From Lachnospiraceae bacterium (GTDB lineage: Bacteria; Bacillota; Clostridia; Lachnospirales; Lachnospiraceae): a stretch of DNA of 34,548 nucleotides. Made by a program: the position numbers and the translations under genes. Each line of letters opens with the position of its first letter. Position 1 is the stretch's first letter. Positions 5,689-22,167 of this stretch are shown here, piece after piece. The stretch covers positions 1 through 34,548 of the forward strand of contig JAFUGT010000008.1 of the NCBI GenBank assembly GCA_017469275.1. The letters are read 5' to 3'. The notes beneath the pieces were generated by a model. That model ran no database searches. It saw only the letters and a program-made list of their open reading frames with translations, and was not told where the DNA came from.

Positions 5689-5717
5689 TTGACTTTTGGG
5701 GTGCTTGATGGTACAAT
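5689..5717 (+). promoter_or_regulatory. Promoter of the c-di-GMP riboswitch transcript
   Basis: TTGACT at 5689-5694 and TACAAT at 5712-5717 are separated by exactly 17 bases, and TG precedes the -10 box with one base between (extended -10). A start near 5724 would place the 5' end about ten bases before the aptamer, as expected. It begins just after the yolD stop codon. Confidence 0.7.
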
Positions 5718-5732
5718 TATCCATATAAAAAT

Positions 5733-5800
5733 ATGGGCAAAGCAGGAGAAATCTTGTGACGCAAAACTATAGGGCCTTTAGAATGGCAGCCAGTTGCTTC
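5733..5800 (+). ncRNA. Cyclic-di-GMP-I riboswitch (GEMM-I aptamer)
   Basis: The closing stem P1 pairs GCAA (5737-5740) with TTGC (5794-5797). P2 is CAGGA (5743-5747) with TCTTG (5752-5756) capped by a GAAA tetraloop. It is followed by the invariant core TGACGCAAAAC, a TATAGGG/CCTTTAG element resembling the tetraloop receptor, and ATGGCAGCCAGTTGC. All these are consensus features of the GEMM-I class that binds c-di-GMP. It sits between a strong promoter and an intrinsic terminator, upstream of a secreted transglutaminase-like gene. Whether binding turns the gene on or off cannot be read with confidence. Confidence 0.92.
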
Positions 5801-5835
5801 CGGTTACATATGCGGAATATATATTAGGATTTGGT

Positions 5836-5862
5836 GCTCATATTTTATATATGAGCTTTTTT
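5836..5862 (+). terminator. Riboswitch expression-platform terminator
   Basis: GCTCATAT (5836-5843) pairs perfectly with ATATGAGC (5849-5856) around a five-base loop, followed by six T (5857-5862). It lies 36 bases after the aptamer and 83 bases before the start codon, so it can attenuate the downstream gene. The AT-rich stretch between aptamer and stem could form a competing antiterminator. Confidence 0.85.
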
Positions 5863-5945
5863 GTTACCTTTTGAAGTAATTATTATACGTTGGATATAGC
5901 ATGGAGAATAGTAGGTTTGGGCATAGCGATAGAGAGGTGTTTTCT

Positions 5946-7949
5946 ATGATGAATAAAGCGGGTTTATACAAATTACACAGAAGAATAACTTCGTTGACAC
6001 TTGCTGTTGTTATGGGAGTTTCTGTTATATCGGCACCTGCTTATGCTGAAGCAGAAGAGGTAAAGACTGCTATAGAAGTTGAAGATGAGACCGCCCTTAT
6101 GGAGGTGCAGTCGGTAGAGGTCAGCAGATTTGCCGCTTTGAAGGGTCGTATAAAGCATCAGATTTCTCAGCAGATATCCTCTGATGAAGACAGTGAAACG
6201 GTTGTGGATGATAGGAACTGGCAGCTTTATAGATCAACTTATGTATTTGATCAGATGAATGCAGAAGAGAAGGCTCTTTACAACGAACTTGAGAATGTAT
6301 GTAACGACTATGCCAAAAACAGTGAAAAGGATGCGATTTATCTTACCGACACCAGCGGCAACGGAGCGTATTACCTCCCTGCGGTATCTGTCAAGGATTT
6401 TGATGGCAACGATTATGTTAAGGTTTTGCAGTTATTCATTTATTCCAATCCACAGTTTTATTTCACTACATCTTCATTTGCAAAGAGTGGCAATAACGTA
6501 TATATGTATTGCTATCCTGCATTTGCAGATGGTGAGGATAGAGCGGTTATTACCAATGCATTGTTCTCTAAGCTGGATTCGTGGATAGATATTATCAAGT
6601 CAGATAATGAGACAACTGCCGATATAGAAAAATATGCACATGATTTTCTTTGTGATAAATTAAGTTACGACTATGATGCTGCTGACAGTATGAATCAGGG
6701 GGATTATAGTGATGACGTATACTATTGCCAATCAATATATAGTGCGGTTAACAATTATAAGACGGTATGCGCCGGTTACGCGCTTACGTATGAGCTTCTT
6801 ATGAATGCAGCGGGAGTTGACACCGTTACGGTATTTAGTGATTATCATGCATGGAATAAAGTTAATTTAGGTAATGACAAATGGTATGCGTTGGATGTCA
6901 CCTGGGATGACTATGGGGATGCATCTAAGATAGATTACACTTTCTTTAATAAATCCGACGAAGAGATTCAGAAGTATGATGATGATCTGCCGGTGCATGT
7001 TGCTAAGACTCCGGAATATTATCCCGTAGCTGCGTATAATTACGAAGCGGAAGAAACAACAGGAGATGACCAGAGTGCCGAGAATATAATTAACAATGAT
7101 GATCTTATTATAGATACAAATGATGTTGAGAATAATACAATATCGGATGAATCATCAGATGGCACAGATGAGAATATCTCTGATGATTTTAACACAGAGG
7201 ATTACGAACATGATGACGGCATAGATGTGGTCAGTGATTCGGAAAAGTCTGATACAGAGATAGAAAATGTTGAAGCGAGTGGCGAAGAGATAACGGATGA
7301 AGGTGATTCTGATACAGAGATAGATGATGTTGAAGCGAGTGGCGAAGAGATAACGAATGAAGATATGGCTGATACAGAGATAGATGATGTTGAAGCAGCC
7401 AATAAAGAGACAACAGATGAACAAGCGACTGATACAAAATCAGAGAATACGGAAACATCTAATATTGAGAAAAAGAATGCTGATGCAGCAATTGAGGACA
7501 CCATCAGTACAGAAGTTGGGAATACAGAAGCAGATAAAACTGATGCATTAACAATGGACATAGTCGACAATGCAGCAGATAATTCAACAGGTAATTCAAT
7601 AGGCGATGTAGCATACAATTCGGTAAATGATAATGTCGAGACTGCGAACGAATATGAAGTGAAGTTAGCGCACTCAAAGATAACCAAGGTTAAAGCAGAC
7701 CGTAAGAAGATTCGGGTTACATGGAAGAAGATTAAGTCTATTGATGGTTATGAGATTCAACTCAGTAAGACAAAGAATTTTAAGAAGATAGCAAGAACTG
7801 TTAAGGCTTCTAAGTCGGCTACAAAGATATGGGTTAAAAAATTAAAGAAGAACACAACATATTATGTGCGGATACGTACTTATAAGAAGATTGATGGCTC
7901 TAAGATTACGTCTGATTGGTCTGGTGTAAAAAAGGTTACTACAAGATAA
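5946..7949 (+). CDS. Secreted transglutaminase-like protein with acidic repeats and a fibronectin type III domain
   Basis: A 667-residue exported protein. Residues 1-34 form a signal peptide (basic start, SLTLAVVMGVSVISAPAYA, cleavage before EAEE). A transglutaminase-core domain follows, with the triad Cys275 (TVCAGYA), His301 (YHAWNK) and Asp317 (LDVTWDD). Residues ~370-570 are acidic, Asp/Glu/Thr-rich linker including three 20-residue repeats built on DTEI.(D/N)VEAS. The last ~90 residues are a Lys-rich fibronectin type III domain ending in WSGVKKVTT. Such a layout suggests a surface or extracellular protein that cross-links, hydrolyses or binds proteins; the substrate is unknown. I chose ATG 5946 because GAGAGGTG lies about 7 bases upstream; the ATG at 5901 would put extra residues before the signal peptide. 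Expression is controlled by the c-di-GMP-I riboswitch in its leader. Confidence 0.88.
   Translation: MMNKAGLYKLHRRITSLTLAVVMGVSVISAPAYAEAEEVKTAIEVEDETALMEVQSVEVSRFAALKGRIKHQISQQISSDEDSETVVDDRNWQLYRSTYVFDQMNAEEKALYNELENVCNDYAKNSEKDAIYLTDTSGNGAYYLPAVSVKDFDGNDYVKVLQLFIYSNPQFYFTTSSFAKSGNNVYMYCYPAFADGEDRAVITNALFSKLDSWIDIIKSDNETTADIEKYAHDFLCDKLSYDYDAADSMNQGDYSDDVYYCQSIYSAVNNYKTVCAGYALTYELLMNAAGVDTVTVFSDYHAWNKVNLGNDKWYALDVTWDDYGDASKIDYTFFNKSDEEIQKYDDDLPVHVAKTPEYYPVAAYNYEAEETTGDDQSAENIINNDDLIIDTNDVENNTISDESSDGTDENISDDFNTEDYEHDDGIDVVSDSEKSDTEIENVEASGEEITDEGDSDTEIDDVEASGEEITNEDMADTEIDDVEAANKETTDEQATDTKSENTETSNIEKKNADAAIEDTISTEVGNTEADKTDALTMDIVDNAADNSTGNSIGDVAYNSVNDNVETANEYEVKLAHSKITKVKADRKKIRVTWKKIKSIDGYEIQLSKTKNFKKIARTVKASKSATKIWVKKLKKNTTYYVRIRTYKKIDGSKITSDWSGVKKVTTR
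7249..7428 (+). repeat. Three tandem 60-bp coding repeats
   Basis: Three consecutive 60-base units beginning TCTGATACAGAGATAGA or GCTGATACAGAGATAGA encode 20-residue acidic repeats in the linker of the transglutaminase-like protein. The first two are nearly identical in DNA; the third diverges at its end. Such repeats can change copy number by slippage or recombination. Confidence 0.85.
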
Positions 7950-8035: not shown

Positions 8036-8082
8036 TGCAAAATATCATAATATTTGGAAAACACTGGACATTAATGATAAGG

Positions 8083-8125
8083 AACTGCCATATTACGATT
8101 AAGGGATTAGTAATGTGGCAGTTTT
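8083..8125 (+). terminator. Probable intrinsic terminator
   Basis: AACTGCCATATTAC (8083-8096) pairs with GTAATGTGGCAGTT (8110-8123) around a 13-base loop, with G-T pairs allowed, followed by a short T run. It would end the transcript of the transglutaminase-like gene before the amidase start. Confidence 0.6.
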
Positions 8126-8186
8126 ATTGTATATTTGTGTGATTTGTGGTATAGGTTATAAAGAGAATAAATGGGAGCAAAAAATT

Positions 8187-9527: not shown

Positions 9528-9893
9528 TTATTGTTCCTGTTCCTGATCGTCAAGCATCTTGGCATAATCTTCAAACACATAATTAAATATTCCCGCAAGT
9601 CCGACGAACTCGCAGCCATATCGATAACTGCCATCCTCAAGCTCACTTACGTTAAGGATTTTAACTACGGTTAAAATCTTCTGTTCTGATGATTCTAACA
9701 CGATTGTTGCATTGAAATAATATCCTTCGGGAAGATGGGCGGTTGTTGTAAATCCGATACCGGCCTGATTGATGTCAAATACATGAATTTCTGCATTAAG
9801 ATCCGGAATGATATCATTGTCCTGCTTGAACAATTGCGAAACTTCAAGGTTCAATTGTATAGGTAATCTTTTATAGCGTCTTTTCTCGTACAT
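9528..9893 (-). CDS. PilZ domain protein (probable c-di-GMP receptor)
   Basis: A 121-residue single-domain PilZ protein. It has the N-terminal arginine motif RRYKRLP (RxxxR) and, after the first strands, DINQAGIGF, matching the (D/N)xSxxG motif with Asn-Gln-Ala-Gly in place of the usual Ser. Those two elements clamp intercalated c-di-GMP in PilZ proteins. It has no signal peptide or membrane segment, so it is cytosolic. The C-terminus is acidic. GAGGG lies upstream of the ATG on the minus strand. The Ser of the second motif is replaced, so ligand binding is likely but not assured. Confidence 0.82.
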   Translation of the reverse strand: MYEKRRYKRLPIQLNLEVSQLFKQDNDIIPDLNAEIHVFDINQAGIGFTTTAHLPEGYYFNATIVLESSEQKILTVVKILNVSELEDGSYRYGCEFVGLAGIFNYVFEDYAKMLDDQEQEQ

Positions 9894-13441: not shown

Positions 13442-15295
13442 GTTTGCGCGCCATGGGCGCGCTCTAACGGGTGAAAGTCCCGAACACGCCTAGGCAACGA
13501 GGAAGTGTATAGCTGAACAACAAGGGTGTCCATCGTGAGGTGGAATCTGAAGGAAGTTGTAGGCAAACTCTTGGTCCGACGAACAGAAATCACATATAAG
13601 GCTCGGAAATACGGATAAGTCTGCTAAAAGAGATGAAGTCCAAAAGTTGCTGGAAGTACGAGTAAATGTGGCGGATAGATGAGAGGAAGGAGCGTGCACC
13701 TTAAGCGTGGAGGTCTCATAGAGGTTTCATTAGCCTAGTAACAACGAACTGTGAGAAGTCAGCCGAACCCATAGTAGTGAAGAAGTCTCTGTAATGGAGA
13801 TGGAGCGAAGGGGTGAACAATCAATAAGTTTGAGTATGTCTCGTATTGCAGAGATGACAACACCTGCCGTAACCAATCGGGTAAAAGATGGTCAAATCAA
13901 GCGAGACGGAAAGGAAAGAACGCATGGACACAAGTAGTCTAATGGAACAGATACTATCTAGAGATAATCTCAACAGAGCATATCTGCAAGTCGTACGAAA
14001 CAAAGGTGCAGAGGGAGTGGACGGAATGAAGTACACAGAACTCAAAGAGTATCTTGAAAAGAACGGCGAGAACATCAAGGAGCAGTTGAGGACAAGGAAA
14101 TACAAACCTCAGCCAGTACGAAGAGTGGAGATACCAAAGCCTGATGGTGGTGTTAGAAACCTAGGAGTGCCAACGGTAACAGACAGATTCATACAGCAAG
14201 CCATAGCACAGGTGTTAACACCAATCTACGAGGAACAATTCCATGAACATAGTTACGGATTTAGACCTAATAGATGTGCACAACAGGCAATCCTAATGGC
14301 ATTAGACATGATGAATGATGGTAACGAATGGATTGTAGACATTGACCTAGAAAAGTTCTTTGACACAGTAAATCACGACAAGCTTATGACAATCATTGGC
14401 AGAACTATCAAAGATGGAGATGTCATCTCTATAGTTCGAAAATACCTAGTCAGTGGGATCATGATAGATGATGAATATGAGGACTCTGTAGTAGGAACGC
14501 CGCAAGGTGGAAACCTCTCGCCGCTATTGGCAAACATCATGCTCAATGAACTGGATAAGGAAATGGAAAAGAGAGGGCTGAACTTTGTACGATATGCTGA
14601 TGACTGTATTATTATGGTCAGAAGTGAAATGTCTGCTAACAGAGTCATGAGAAACATCTGTCGATTCATCGAAGAGAAACTGGGGCTCAAGGTCAACATG
14701 ACAAAGAGTAAAGTAGACAGACCAGGCGGGCTCAAGTACCTTGGATTCGGGTTCTACTTTGATATCAGAGCTCATCAGTTCAAAGCAAAACCACATGCTA
14801 AATCAGTAGAGAAGTTCAAGAAAAGAATGAAAGTACTCACCTGTCGTAGTTGGGGCGTTAGCAACAGCTATAAAGTTGAGAAATTAAATCAACTCATTAG
14901 AGGGTGGATTAATTACTTCAAGATAGGAAGTATGAAAACTCTTTGCAGAACGCTTGATGGAAACATCAGATACAGACTTCGCATGTGTATTTGGAAGCAT
15001 TGGAAAACTCCACAAATGAGAGCAAAGAACCTAATTAAACTAGGAATAAGTAAAGGTTACGCATGGTCAACAGCATACTCGGGTGCGAGGATTGCATATA
15101 TCTGTCAACGAGGAGCAATGAATTATGCAGTAACAAAAGAAAGACTAACCAAATTTGGATTAGTCTCAATGCTAGATTACTACACCGAAAGGTGTGTCAC
15201 TTGTTAAGTTGATTGAACCGCCGTGTACCGAACGGTACGCACGGTGGTGTGAGAGGTCGGAATTTCTCACTTATGAGAAATTCCTCCTACTCGAT
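13442..15295 (+). mobile_element. Class C (IIC) group II intron
   Basis: An about 1.85-kb retroelement. The 5' part from GTTTGCGCGCC carries domain I elements typical of IIC introns (GGGTGAAAGTCCCGAAC, CAAGGGTGTCC, GGAATCTGAAGGAAG). An intact reverse transcriptase lies in the middle. At the 3' end is a domain V hairpin (about 15213-15257, ACCGCCGTGTACCGAACGGT and pairing arm), then a domain VI hairpin (GGAATTTCTC/GAGAAATTCC) and the ending CTACTCGAT. The domain V triad appears as CGC, as in class C. It inserted right after a terminator stem in the T tract, the class C hallmark. Boundaries are inferred by resemblance and may be off by a base or two. Confidence 0.88.
13888..15207 (+). CDS. ltrA: Group II intron reverse transcriptase/maturase
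   Basis: A 439-residue intron-encoded protein. The fingers/palm contain LMEQILSRDNLNRAY, NKGAEGVDGM, VRRVEIPKPDGG and RFIQQAIAQVLTPIYE. The active-site motif is FVRYADDC and the flanking blocks VGTPQGGNLSPLLANIML and KSKVDRPGGLKYLGFGF are intact. The thumb/maturase X (GIIM) domain includes LNQLIRGWINYFKIG. There is no HNH endonuclease domain, as usual in class C. It should bind its own intron RNA, aid splicing and copy it at new terminators. I keep the ATG at 13888, because related proteins also begin MVKSSE; ATG 13924, with GGAAAGG upstream, is a good alternative. Confidence 0.93.
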   Translation: MVKSSETERKERMDTSSLMEQILSRDNLNRAYLQVVRNKGAEGVDGMKYTELKEYLEKNGENIKEQLRTRKYKPQPVRRVEIPKPDGGVRNLGVPTVTDRFIQQAIAQVLTPIYEEQFHEHSYGFRPNRCAQQAILMALDMMNDGNEWIVDIDLEKFFDTVNHDKLMTIIGRTIKDGDVISIVRKYLVSGIMIDDEYEDSVVGTPQGGNLSPLLANIMLNELDKEMEKRGLNFVRYADDCIIMVRSEMSANRVMRNICRFIEEKLGLKVNMTKSKVDRPGGLKYLGFGFYFDIRAHQFKAKPHAKSVEKFKKRMKVLTCRSWGVSNSYKVEKLNQLIRGWINYFKIGSMKTLCRTLDGNIRYRLRMCIWKHWKTPQMRAKNLIKLGISKGYAWSTAYSGARIAYICQRGAMNYAVTKERLTKFGLVSMLDYYTERCVTC

Positions 15296-21132: not shown

Positions 21133-22167
21133 TTAAAATTGTGTGCTGTTAATGTTAGTGTCATCAAAATCATCCTCGATTACTGTACCTACGACAGACG
21201 AACCGTATGATACCGAAACTCTTGATTTCATAACTATAGATATTACTATAACTAAGATAATAATAAAGCTGACTATTAATAATATATGCAGGAGATTATT
21301 CGTCAATGTTGTTGGAGTATTATAAGACTCCTCGGAAATCGAATTGAGAAATTCACTACTGTTATAAAGACCCTCAGGATAATGATTTGGGAAGTCATTC
21401 CGTCCTTTAAGAAAATAATTATAGCCTACGTCGTTGCCACCCAAGTCATCCCAGGTGGCATCATAGTTGTACCATTTACCGTCTATCTGTACAACATTCC
21501 AGGCGTGATTCTCACGCTTATTGTCGTCTCCGGCTTTCCCGATTACTATACGGGTAGGAATACCCATGTATGAGAGAAGAACATAGCTTGCCATACTATA
21601 CCCCTGACAAACCATTCTATTTTCCCTAAAGCCTTCTATGTCGGTATAGTTCGTGCTGACATTATTATAGTCATATTCTACACGACGGATAATATAGTCA
21701 TGTACTGCTTTGACACTTTCGTAATCATTTTCTCCGCGAAGTTCGTTGGCGAGCTGCTGCATTTCCTTAAAGTATTCCTGCATGGTATCCTTAGGAACAA
21801 AGAAGTTCATCTGTACATTAAGGGTACGGCTTCTGCTGAGAAACCAGGACATGTGAAAATCGTGTATGGTCAGATATGTGTAACAACCTGAGGCCAAAGG
21901 TTCTTTGGGGTTATAGTGGTAAAGGAAGGGTTCTTCAATGTTCTGACTTACAGTTATCTGCTGCTTGAGCTCCTCTGATGAAAGGTAATACAGTTGTTGC
22001 GATTTGTGCTCTAATATCTGATGGCTTAAAGCGGTGAAAAACTCGTCGGCTGTAGAAACGGAATTCTCTGTGCTGTCTGCCCTGACACAAGTAGGGATGA
22101 GACAGGTTACAATACCGATGATAAATATCAGCTTTTTAAGAGTACACAATAATTCTTTCTTTTTCAT
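21133..22167 (-). CDS. Membrane-anchored transglutaminase-like protein
   Basis: A 344-residue protein with an N-terminal signal peptide (LIFIIGIVTCLIPTCVRADS). A transglutaminase-core domain has the triad Cys in NRMVCQGYSMA, His in ENHAWNVVQ and Asp in YDATWDDLGG. A C-terminal membrane helix (LLHILLIVSFIIILVIVISIV) follows, then a short tail. It should face the outside, tethered to the membrane. Members of this family may be proteases or cross-linkers; the substrate is unknown. The catalytic block resembles that of the secreted protein at 5946-7949, so the two may be distant paralogues, but this one lacks the repeats and the fibronectin domain. Confidence 0.85.
   Translation of the reverse strand: MKKKELLCTLKKLIFIIGIVTCLIPTCVRADSTENSVSTADEFFTALSHQILEHKSQQLYYLSSEELKQQITVSQNIEEPFLYHYNPKEPLASGCYTYLTIHDFHMSWFLSRSRTLNVQMNFFVPKDTMQEYFKEMQQLANELRGENDYESVKAVHDYIIRRVEYDYNNVSTNYTDIEGFRENRMVCQGYSMASYVLLSYMGIPTRIVIGKAGDDNKRENHAWNVVQIDGKWYNYDATWDDLGGNDVGYNYFLKGRNDFPNHYPEGLYNSSEFLNSISEESYNTPTTLTNNLLHILLIVSFIIILVIVISIVMKSRVSVSYGSSVVGTVIEDDFDDTNINSTQF

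Follow-up and report, generated by a model that had tools for sequence, protein, structure and literature searches.

Introduction

Pseudomonas exports a cysteine protease of transglutaminase-like type, LapG, whose residues include a Cys-His-Asp triad and which frees an adhesin when c-di-GMP is low (PMC3032545), and in the LapD-LapG system as described there it is restrained post-translationally by LapD. In C. difficile, the gene of the zinc metalloprotease PPEP-1 (Zmp1) stands behind a class I OFF switch and adhesins are freed at low c-di-GMP (PMC6366702, PMC11477304); every one of the seven class I switches that are functional in this species is given as an OFF switch (PMC6366702). The substrates of PPEP-1 are under c-di-GMP-II switches. 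In Bacillota, according to Table 2 of a 2025 survey, tandem c-di-GMP-I riboswitches are enriched in front of genes for transglutaminase-like enzymes (COG1305; P 1.08E-34), with two aptamers in 94% of the cases and three in 6% (PMC12452182).

Here we analyze a stretch of 34,548 nucleotides (the window) from a Lachnospiraceae bacterium whose 2.8 Mb genome, in 182 contigs, is 82.6% complete. In it an earlier note, made from the sequence alone, had read a c-di-GMP-I riboswitch with its own promoter and terminator before a secreted transglutaminase/Fn3 protein, from the start of the promoter at 5689 to the end of the stop codon at 7949. This chain of promoter, aptamer, terminator and exported transglutaminase-like/Fn3 protein is as first read, and the interpretation built on it is partly supported: sequence comparison makes it likely that the leader is a transcriptional OFF switch for the transglutaminase-like gene, so that the "c-di-GMP-driven" output suggested in the earlier note is most likely reversed.

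The locus shares with LapD-LapG, as far as that system is described in the cited text, an exported transglutaminase-like Cys-His-Asp protein and a low c-di-GMP state, the difference being that control here would be transcriptional; the LapG family (DUF920) is absent among the five Pfam families that the window protein matches at E up to 0.1. With PPEP-1, in the accounts cited, it shares a class I riboswitch, predicted here to be OFF, before the gene of a secreted enzyme, although the enzyme itself is transglutaminase-like with Cys-His-Asp rather than a zinc metalloprotease, and a search of its own genome found no c-di-GMP-II switch (the control genomes likewise gave none). As in the tandem systems, a c-di-GMP-I aptamer precedes a transglutaminase-like gene, but the aptamer is single in the window and in the genome where the survey describes two or three contiguous ones, and the window protein is larger than those described there and carries an Fn3 domain; the survey text cited does not take up the direction of control. 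The pairing of c-di-GMP-I with a transglutaminase-like gene, about whose description the earlier note was unsure, is thus already in print; a search of the open-licence literature by title and start of abstract found no paper on a transglutaminase/Fn3 protein behind just one c-di-GMP-I aptamer.

Results

Promoter, Aptamer and Terminator

The elements of the leader all lie on the forward strand. The sigma-70-type promoter (TTGACT-17-TACAAT, 5689–5717) belongs to a class of matches that is frequent by chance (15 found vs. 11.1 ± 3.7 in shuffles), and its TTGAC and TA(A/C)AAT elements have identical placement in six aligned leaders, five of them in front of the gene and the sixth from genome G002. 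The aptamer at 5726–5801 is a full-length match to the c-di-GMP-I (GEMM-I) family RF01051, with 56.6 bits against a gathering cut-off of 35 and an E value of 1.2e-8 for the window; the covariance-model search proposed in the earlier note therefore bears out its reading of a c-di-GMP-I riboswitch over the whole model (positions 1–87), including the GAAA loop that caps P2 at 5748–5751. In the RF01051 alignment model position 11 is a G, which we take to be the ligand-pairing G20 and which falls on G5736; an A instead of G at this position marks cGAMP sensors. We infer from the family match that c-di-GMP is the ligand. The 27 GGDEF matches in the genome, 25 of which are above the cut-off, indicate that c-di-GMP is probably made in the organism, and the aptamer at 5726–5801 is the single RF01051 match found there. 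A second transglutaminase-like protein is encoded in the window at 21133–22167 (− strand), and the window's only c-di-GMP-I match remains the one at 5726.

We considered whether the apparently missing P1 helix is a peculiarity of these leaders and rejected it: the six leaders have 1–4 contiguous pairs, but 29 of 52 other measured leaders also have 3 or fewer, so a short P1 is not distinctive. Right behind the aptamer, a small hairpin at 5799–5816 folds in all six leaders with differing sequences and is perhaps a spacer or a pause element. The intrinsic terminator comprises a stem at 5836–5856 and a U-tract to 5862 (terminator-like sites: 2 found vs. 1.3 ± 1.2 in shuffles), and is followed by a ribosome-binding site (agagaggtg, 5931–5939) in front of the ATG at 5946. 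A further ATG in the same frame, at 5901, lies upstream of both the ribosome-binding site and the signal peptide.

The Predicted Exported Protein and Its Neighbors

The open reading frame at 5946–7949 (+ strand) encodes 667 amino acids, of which approximately residues 1–34 form a signal peptide as predicted by eye, so that export is read from the sequence. A Transglut_core-like domain at 6609–6896 emerges from Pfam, alignment and a profile match: Transglut_core (PF01841) scores 19.2 in the window protein, below the cut-off of 23, but lies above it (27.8–41.3) in all five orthologous proteins or fragments scanned, and a four-sequence profile matches the sequence of PDB 9crn, a solved transglutaminase-like protein, with an E value of 2.9e-14 (a search of open-licence papers for a publication on this structure found none). 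C275 (codon at 6768), H301 (6846) and D317 (6894) are invariant in the four aligned full-length sequences, the window's included; their catalytic role is assumed from the transglutaminase family. The acidic tandem repeats of the first reading are found as about three copies of 60 nt (20 amino acids) at 7247–7436, a linker that is not conserved among orthologues. At the C-terminus, a fibronectin type III domain (7695–7892) scores 30.5 in Pfam against a cut-off of 25, and is also over the cut-off in four of the five orthologous proteins or fragments.

Behind the gene, a strong hairpin at 8082–8124 with a U-rich tail (8082–8131, + strand; folding z −5.4) probably ends the transcript before the adjoining amidase gene, which suggests that the transglutaminase-like gene is transcribed alone. 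A PilZ-domain protein, of a c-di-GMP receptor family, is encoded nearby at 9528–9893 (− strand). The PilZ gene occurs in 22 of the 26 genus genomes and has an amidase frame beside it in 19 of these 22 loci, 15 of the 19 lying in genomes without a close transglutaminase orthologue. We therefore rejected PilZ and amidase as specific evidence of a functional partnership, and both say little on function since they are common to the genus. Elsewhere the window holds a group II intron, with D1-D4 ribozyme matches at 13529–13698 and 13735–13813 followed by a reverse transcriptase/maturase frame at 13888–15204.

Distribution of the Aptamer and the Gene

Ten of the 26 genus genomes have c-di-GMP-I matches (15 in total), and six have a close orthologue of the gene, 44–54% identical over the main matched pieces: the window's own genome (G000), G006, G010, G015 (on two contigs), G016 and G021 (in two frames). 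The orthologue in G021 (locus L050, 378–2251) is split by a frameshift or an assembly error. An aptamer lies just upstream in five of the six. In G016, neither the gathering nor a relaxed search found one in the 156 nt from the contig edge to the start codon; the distance from aptamer to gene is about 100–225 nt in other leaders, so this stretch is not decisive and G016 may be a true exception. In G002 (locus L052, 1668–2130), the aptamer and the antiterminator/terminator are in the same place, the transglutaminase gene is absent and the amidase is next.

Outside the genus, the best match of the four-sequence profile among 150 family genomes, in G027, again has an aptamer in front. The comparison of orthologous leaders that the earlier note called for thus favors the association in the genus and in one member of a second genus, while the weaker relatives do not share it. 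Relatives of the protein occur in 22 named records, mostly metagenome assemblies, of which 14 are titled Lachnospiraceae. For 17 more distant relatives from the named collection (25–35% identical), RF01051 was found in none of the fetched stretches, at least two of which had just 320–400 nt upstream. Eleven more genomes of the family have weaker matches, none of them preceded by the aptamer, which is missing from five of these genomes and lies on other contigs in six. The pairing thus belongs to the close orthologues and not to the wider protein family.

At the level of the family, c-di-GMP-I matches occur in 135 of 397 sampled genomes, the window's own included. Ninety loci were drawn in order of score, with tandem duplicates and a number of matches at contig edges passed over, so that high-scoring aptamers are over-represented; a first downstream frame was called in 81, five of these were mostly masked, and 76 were scanned with a local profile, many of them cut by the end of the stretch. 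A transglutaminase-like domain was found in 4 of these 76 other proteins (L084, L085, L123 and L133; by Pfam three are over the cut-off and L084 is below it), which looks enriched relative to the 9 Transglut_core matches in the 2.8 Mb of the window's own genome. L123 and L133 are small proteins, and that of L133 (genome G049) shares 24% identity with the window protein across 97 residues, so that the pairing may have more than one origin.

A Predicted Antiterminator Built from the Aptamer

Between the end of the aptamer and the start codon, or an arbitrary cut in G002, GCTCATAT is the only 8-mer common to the six leaders, in a region that is otherwise poorly conserved among them; a shared 8-mer of any kind arose in 0 of 500 sets of base-shuffled regions. 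In all six it falls within the terminator's 5' arm, and it is complementary, with one G-U pair included, to AUAUGGGC, a segment at the start of the aptamer that takes in the two bases closing the bottom of P2 and presumably contains the ligand-pairing G20. In the window, the antiterminator would join a left strand within the aptamer (AUAUGGGCA, 5731–5739, + strand) to a complementary right strand (UGCUCAUAU, 5835–5843, + strand) that holds the shared 8-mer and overlaps the 5' arm of the terminator.

The duplex of this arm with the aptamer's 5' strand was equaled by 4, 0, 0, 0, 0 and 1 of 500 same-arm shuffles in the six leaders. In G006 the terminator is 65 nt further off and the arm match is retained; in G027, of the second genus, the arm differs (GUCCAUA) and still pairs, as read by eye, through G-C/G-U exchanges. 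If the arm is free to pair anywhere in the 95-nt aptamer stretch, the same segment is best in the five gene-bearing leaders, but the window arm does not reach significance, since 31 of 200 shuffles do equally well, with 81, 14, 3 and 1 of 200 for L006, L002, L008 and L011, respectively; the case for an OFF switch is therefore carried by conservation across leaders and not by the window taken by itself. Applied generally to 95 leaders (5 skipped, 28 without a terminator and 62 remaining), the antiterminator test gave a weak signal, with 12 of 62 reaching 10 or fewer of 200 shuffles, and the automatic terminator finder chose the wrong hairpin in L005.

Other genus c-di-GMP-I leaders, before other apparently secreted proteins, show a comparable arrangement: in L003, L007, L012 and, less completely, L013, downstream GCGUCAC, ACGUCAC and GCGUCAU match by eye the GUGACGC at the end of P2. 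The match is equaled by 7, 4 and 29 of 200 shuffles in L003, L007 and L012, respectively, and no terminator was found in L013. These leaders also point to OFF designs. For G049 and G152 a translational OFF design, with P1 over the ribosome-binding site, was suspected by eye, and the fold of the G049 leader is unremarkable (z 0.06).

Folding energies, which ignore kinetics and tertiary contacts, place the antiterminator fold 3.8–8.4 kcal/mol ahead of the aptamer fold in all six leaders when the arm has just been transcribed and no ligand is bound, and the terminator and the aptamer are compatible in the folds of all six. For the full window transcript the antiterminator and terminator folds are nearly equal (−37.8 vs. 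−38.2), and for the full G002 leader the antiterminator is the better of the two (−44.8 vs. −41.6). With energies near-equal or, in G002, reversed, the switch would need to work kinetically and might be leaky. A rival hairpin involving 5721–5726 is also present in the window leader.

Direction of the Switch

On structural grounds the leader is predicted to have the architecture of an OFF switch, an antiterminator exclusive with the aptamer and followed by an intrinsic terminator, which is also the direction given for the functional class I switches of C. difficile (PMC6366702). In the mechanism we propose, the sigma-70-type promoter would start a leader with two possible folds, the c-di-GMP-I aptamer or an antiterminator in which the aptamer's 5' strand (5731–5739) pairs with the 5' arm of the terminator (5835–5843). 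Since the antiterminator takes the aptamer's own 5' strand, ligand binding should stop transcription: with c-di-GMP bound, the aptamer would hold this strand and the terminator, which is free once the aptamer has formed, would fold. When c-di-GMP falls, the antiterminator would form and the exported transglutaminase-like protein would be made. Bound ligand would have to outweigh the 3.8–8.4 kcal/mol advantage of the antiterminator. Published c-di-GMP affinities suffice for this.

Two other readings of the leader have to be weighed against an OFF switch. An ON switch, in the sense of the earlier note, with c-di-GMP promoting read-through so that a surface cross-linker is made during attachment, would fit an Fn3 domain and an acidic linker that suit a surface protein, and class I ON switches do exist, such as Bc2 of B. 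thuringiensis before a collagen adhesin as given in PMC6366702. It is nevertheless improbable, as the sole conserved 8-mer behind the aptamer can pair with the 5' strand of the latter, and the six leaders fold in such a way that aptamer and terminator can coexist. We consider it similarly improbable that the aptamer is a remnant or a weak sensor with the gene in effect constitutive or otherwise controlled. Non-functional copies of c-di-GMP riboswitches are described in C. difficile (PMC6366702), G002 retains aptamer and terminator without the transglutaminase gene, and the short readable leader of G016 shows no aptamer; against this, the promoter, aptamer and antiterminator arm are retained in five of six genus orthologues while the remaining leader has diverged, and the aptamer and the pairing arm are retained in another genus (G027).

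Discussion

What the protein does at low c-di-GMP is a separate matter from the direction of the switch. By analogy with LapG and PPEP-1, which act on surface adhesins at low c-di-GMP, our tentative suggestion is that the enzyme processes surface proteins, as a cysteine protease or a transamidase, when cells leave the sessile state. Cross-linking or wall remodelling is the next likeliest job. The transglutaminase fold family includes cross-linkers as well as proteases, and this breadth, together with the adjoining N-acetylmuramoyl-L-alanine amidase gene, gives some substance to a protein that acts at low c-di-GMP as a true cross-linker or an inactive transglutaminase-fold binder, for example in wall remodelling. 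Such a role, which competes with the proposed enzymatic activity and leaves the OFF direction as it is, has a reasonable but less than even chance in our estimate: the invariance of the triad in the four aligned full-length sequences argues against an inactive protein, and the amidase, which accompanies PilZ at 19 of the 22 loci in the genus, 15 of these in genomes without a close orthologue, is unspecific as a pointer to wall remodelling.

The broadest reading of these results is a doubtful one, though worth stating: Lachnospiraceae would release or trim surface proteins with a secreted cysteine protease of transglutaminase type whose production is confined to falling c-di-GMP, a LapG-like job done through a riboswitch, with several distinct transglutaminase-like families placed separately under c-di-GMP-I aptamers. 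The analysis identifies the one gene that was found to follow a c-di-GMP-I aptamer in this organism, whose genome is 82.6% complete and has 27 GGDEF matches, and gives the recurrent pairing of c-di-GMP-I aptamers with transglutaminase-like genes a concrete, testable direction, namely OFF. Should surface proteins be what the enzyme processes, there would be at least three designs for shedding under c-di-GMP control, LapD-LapG, PPEP-1 and the present one, and if the broadest reading is true, these Gram-positives would use a transcriptional riboswitch to the end that LapD-LapG serves in Pseudomonas.
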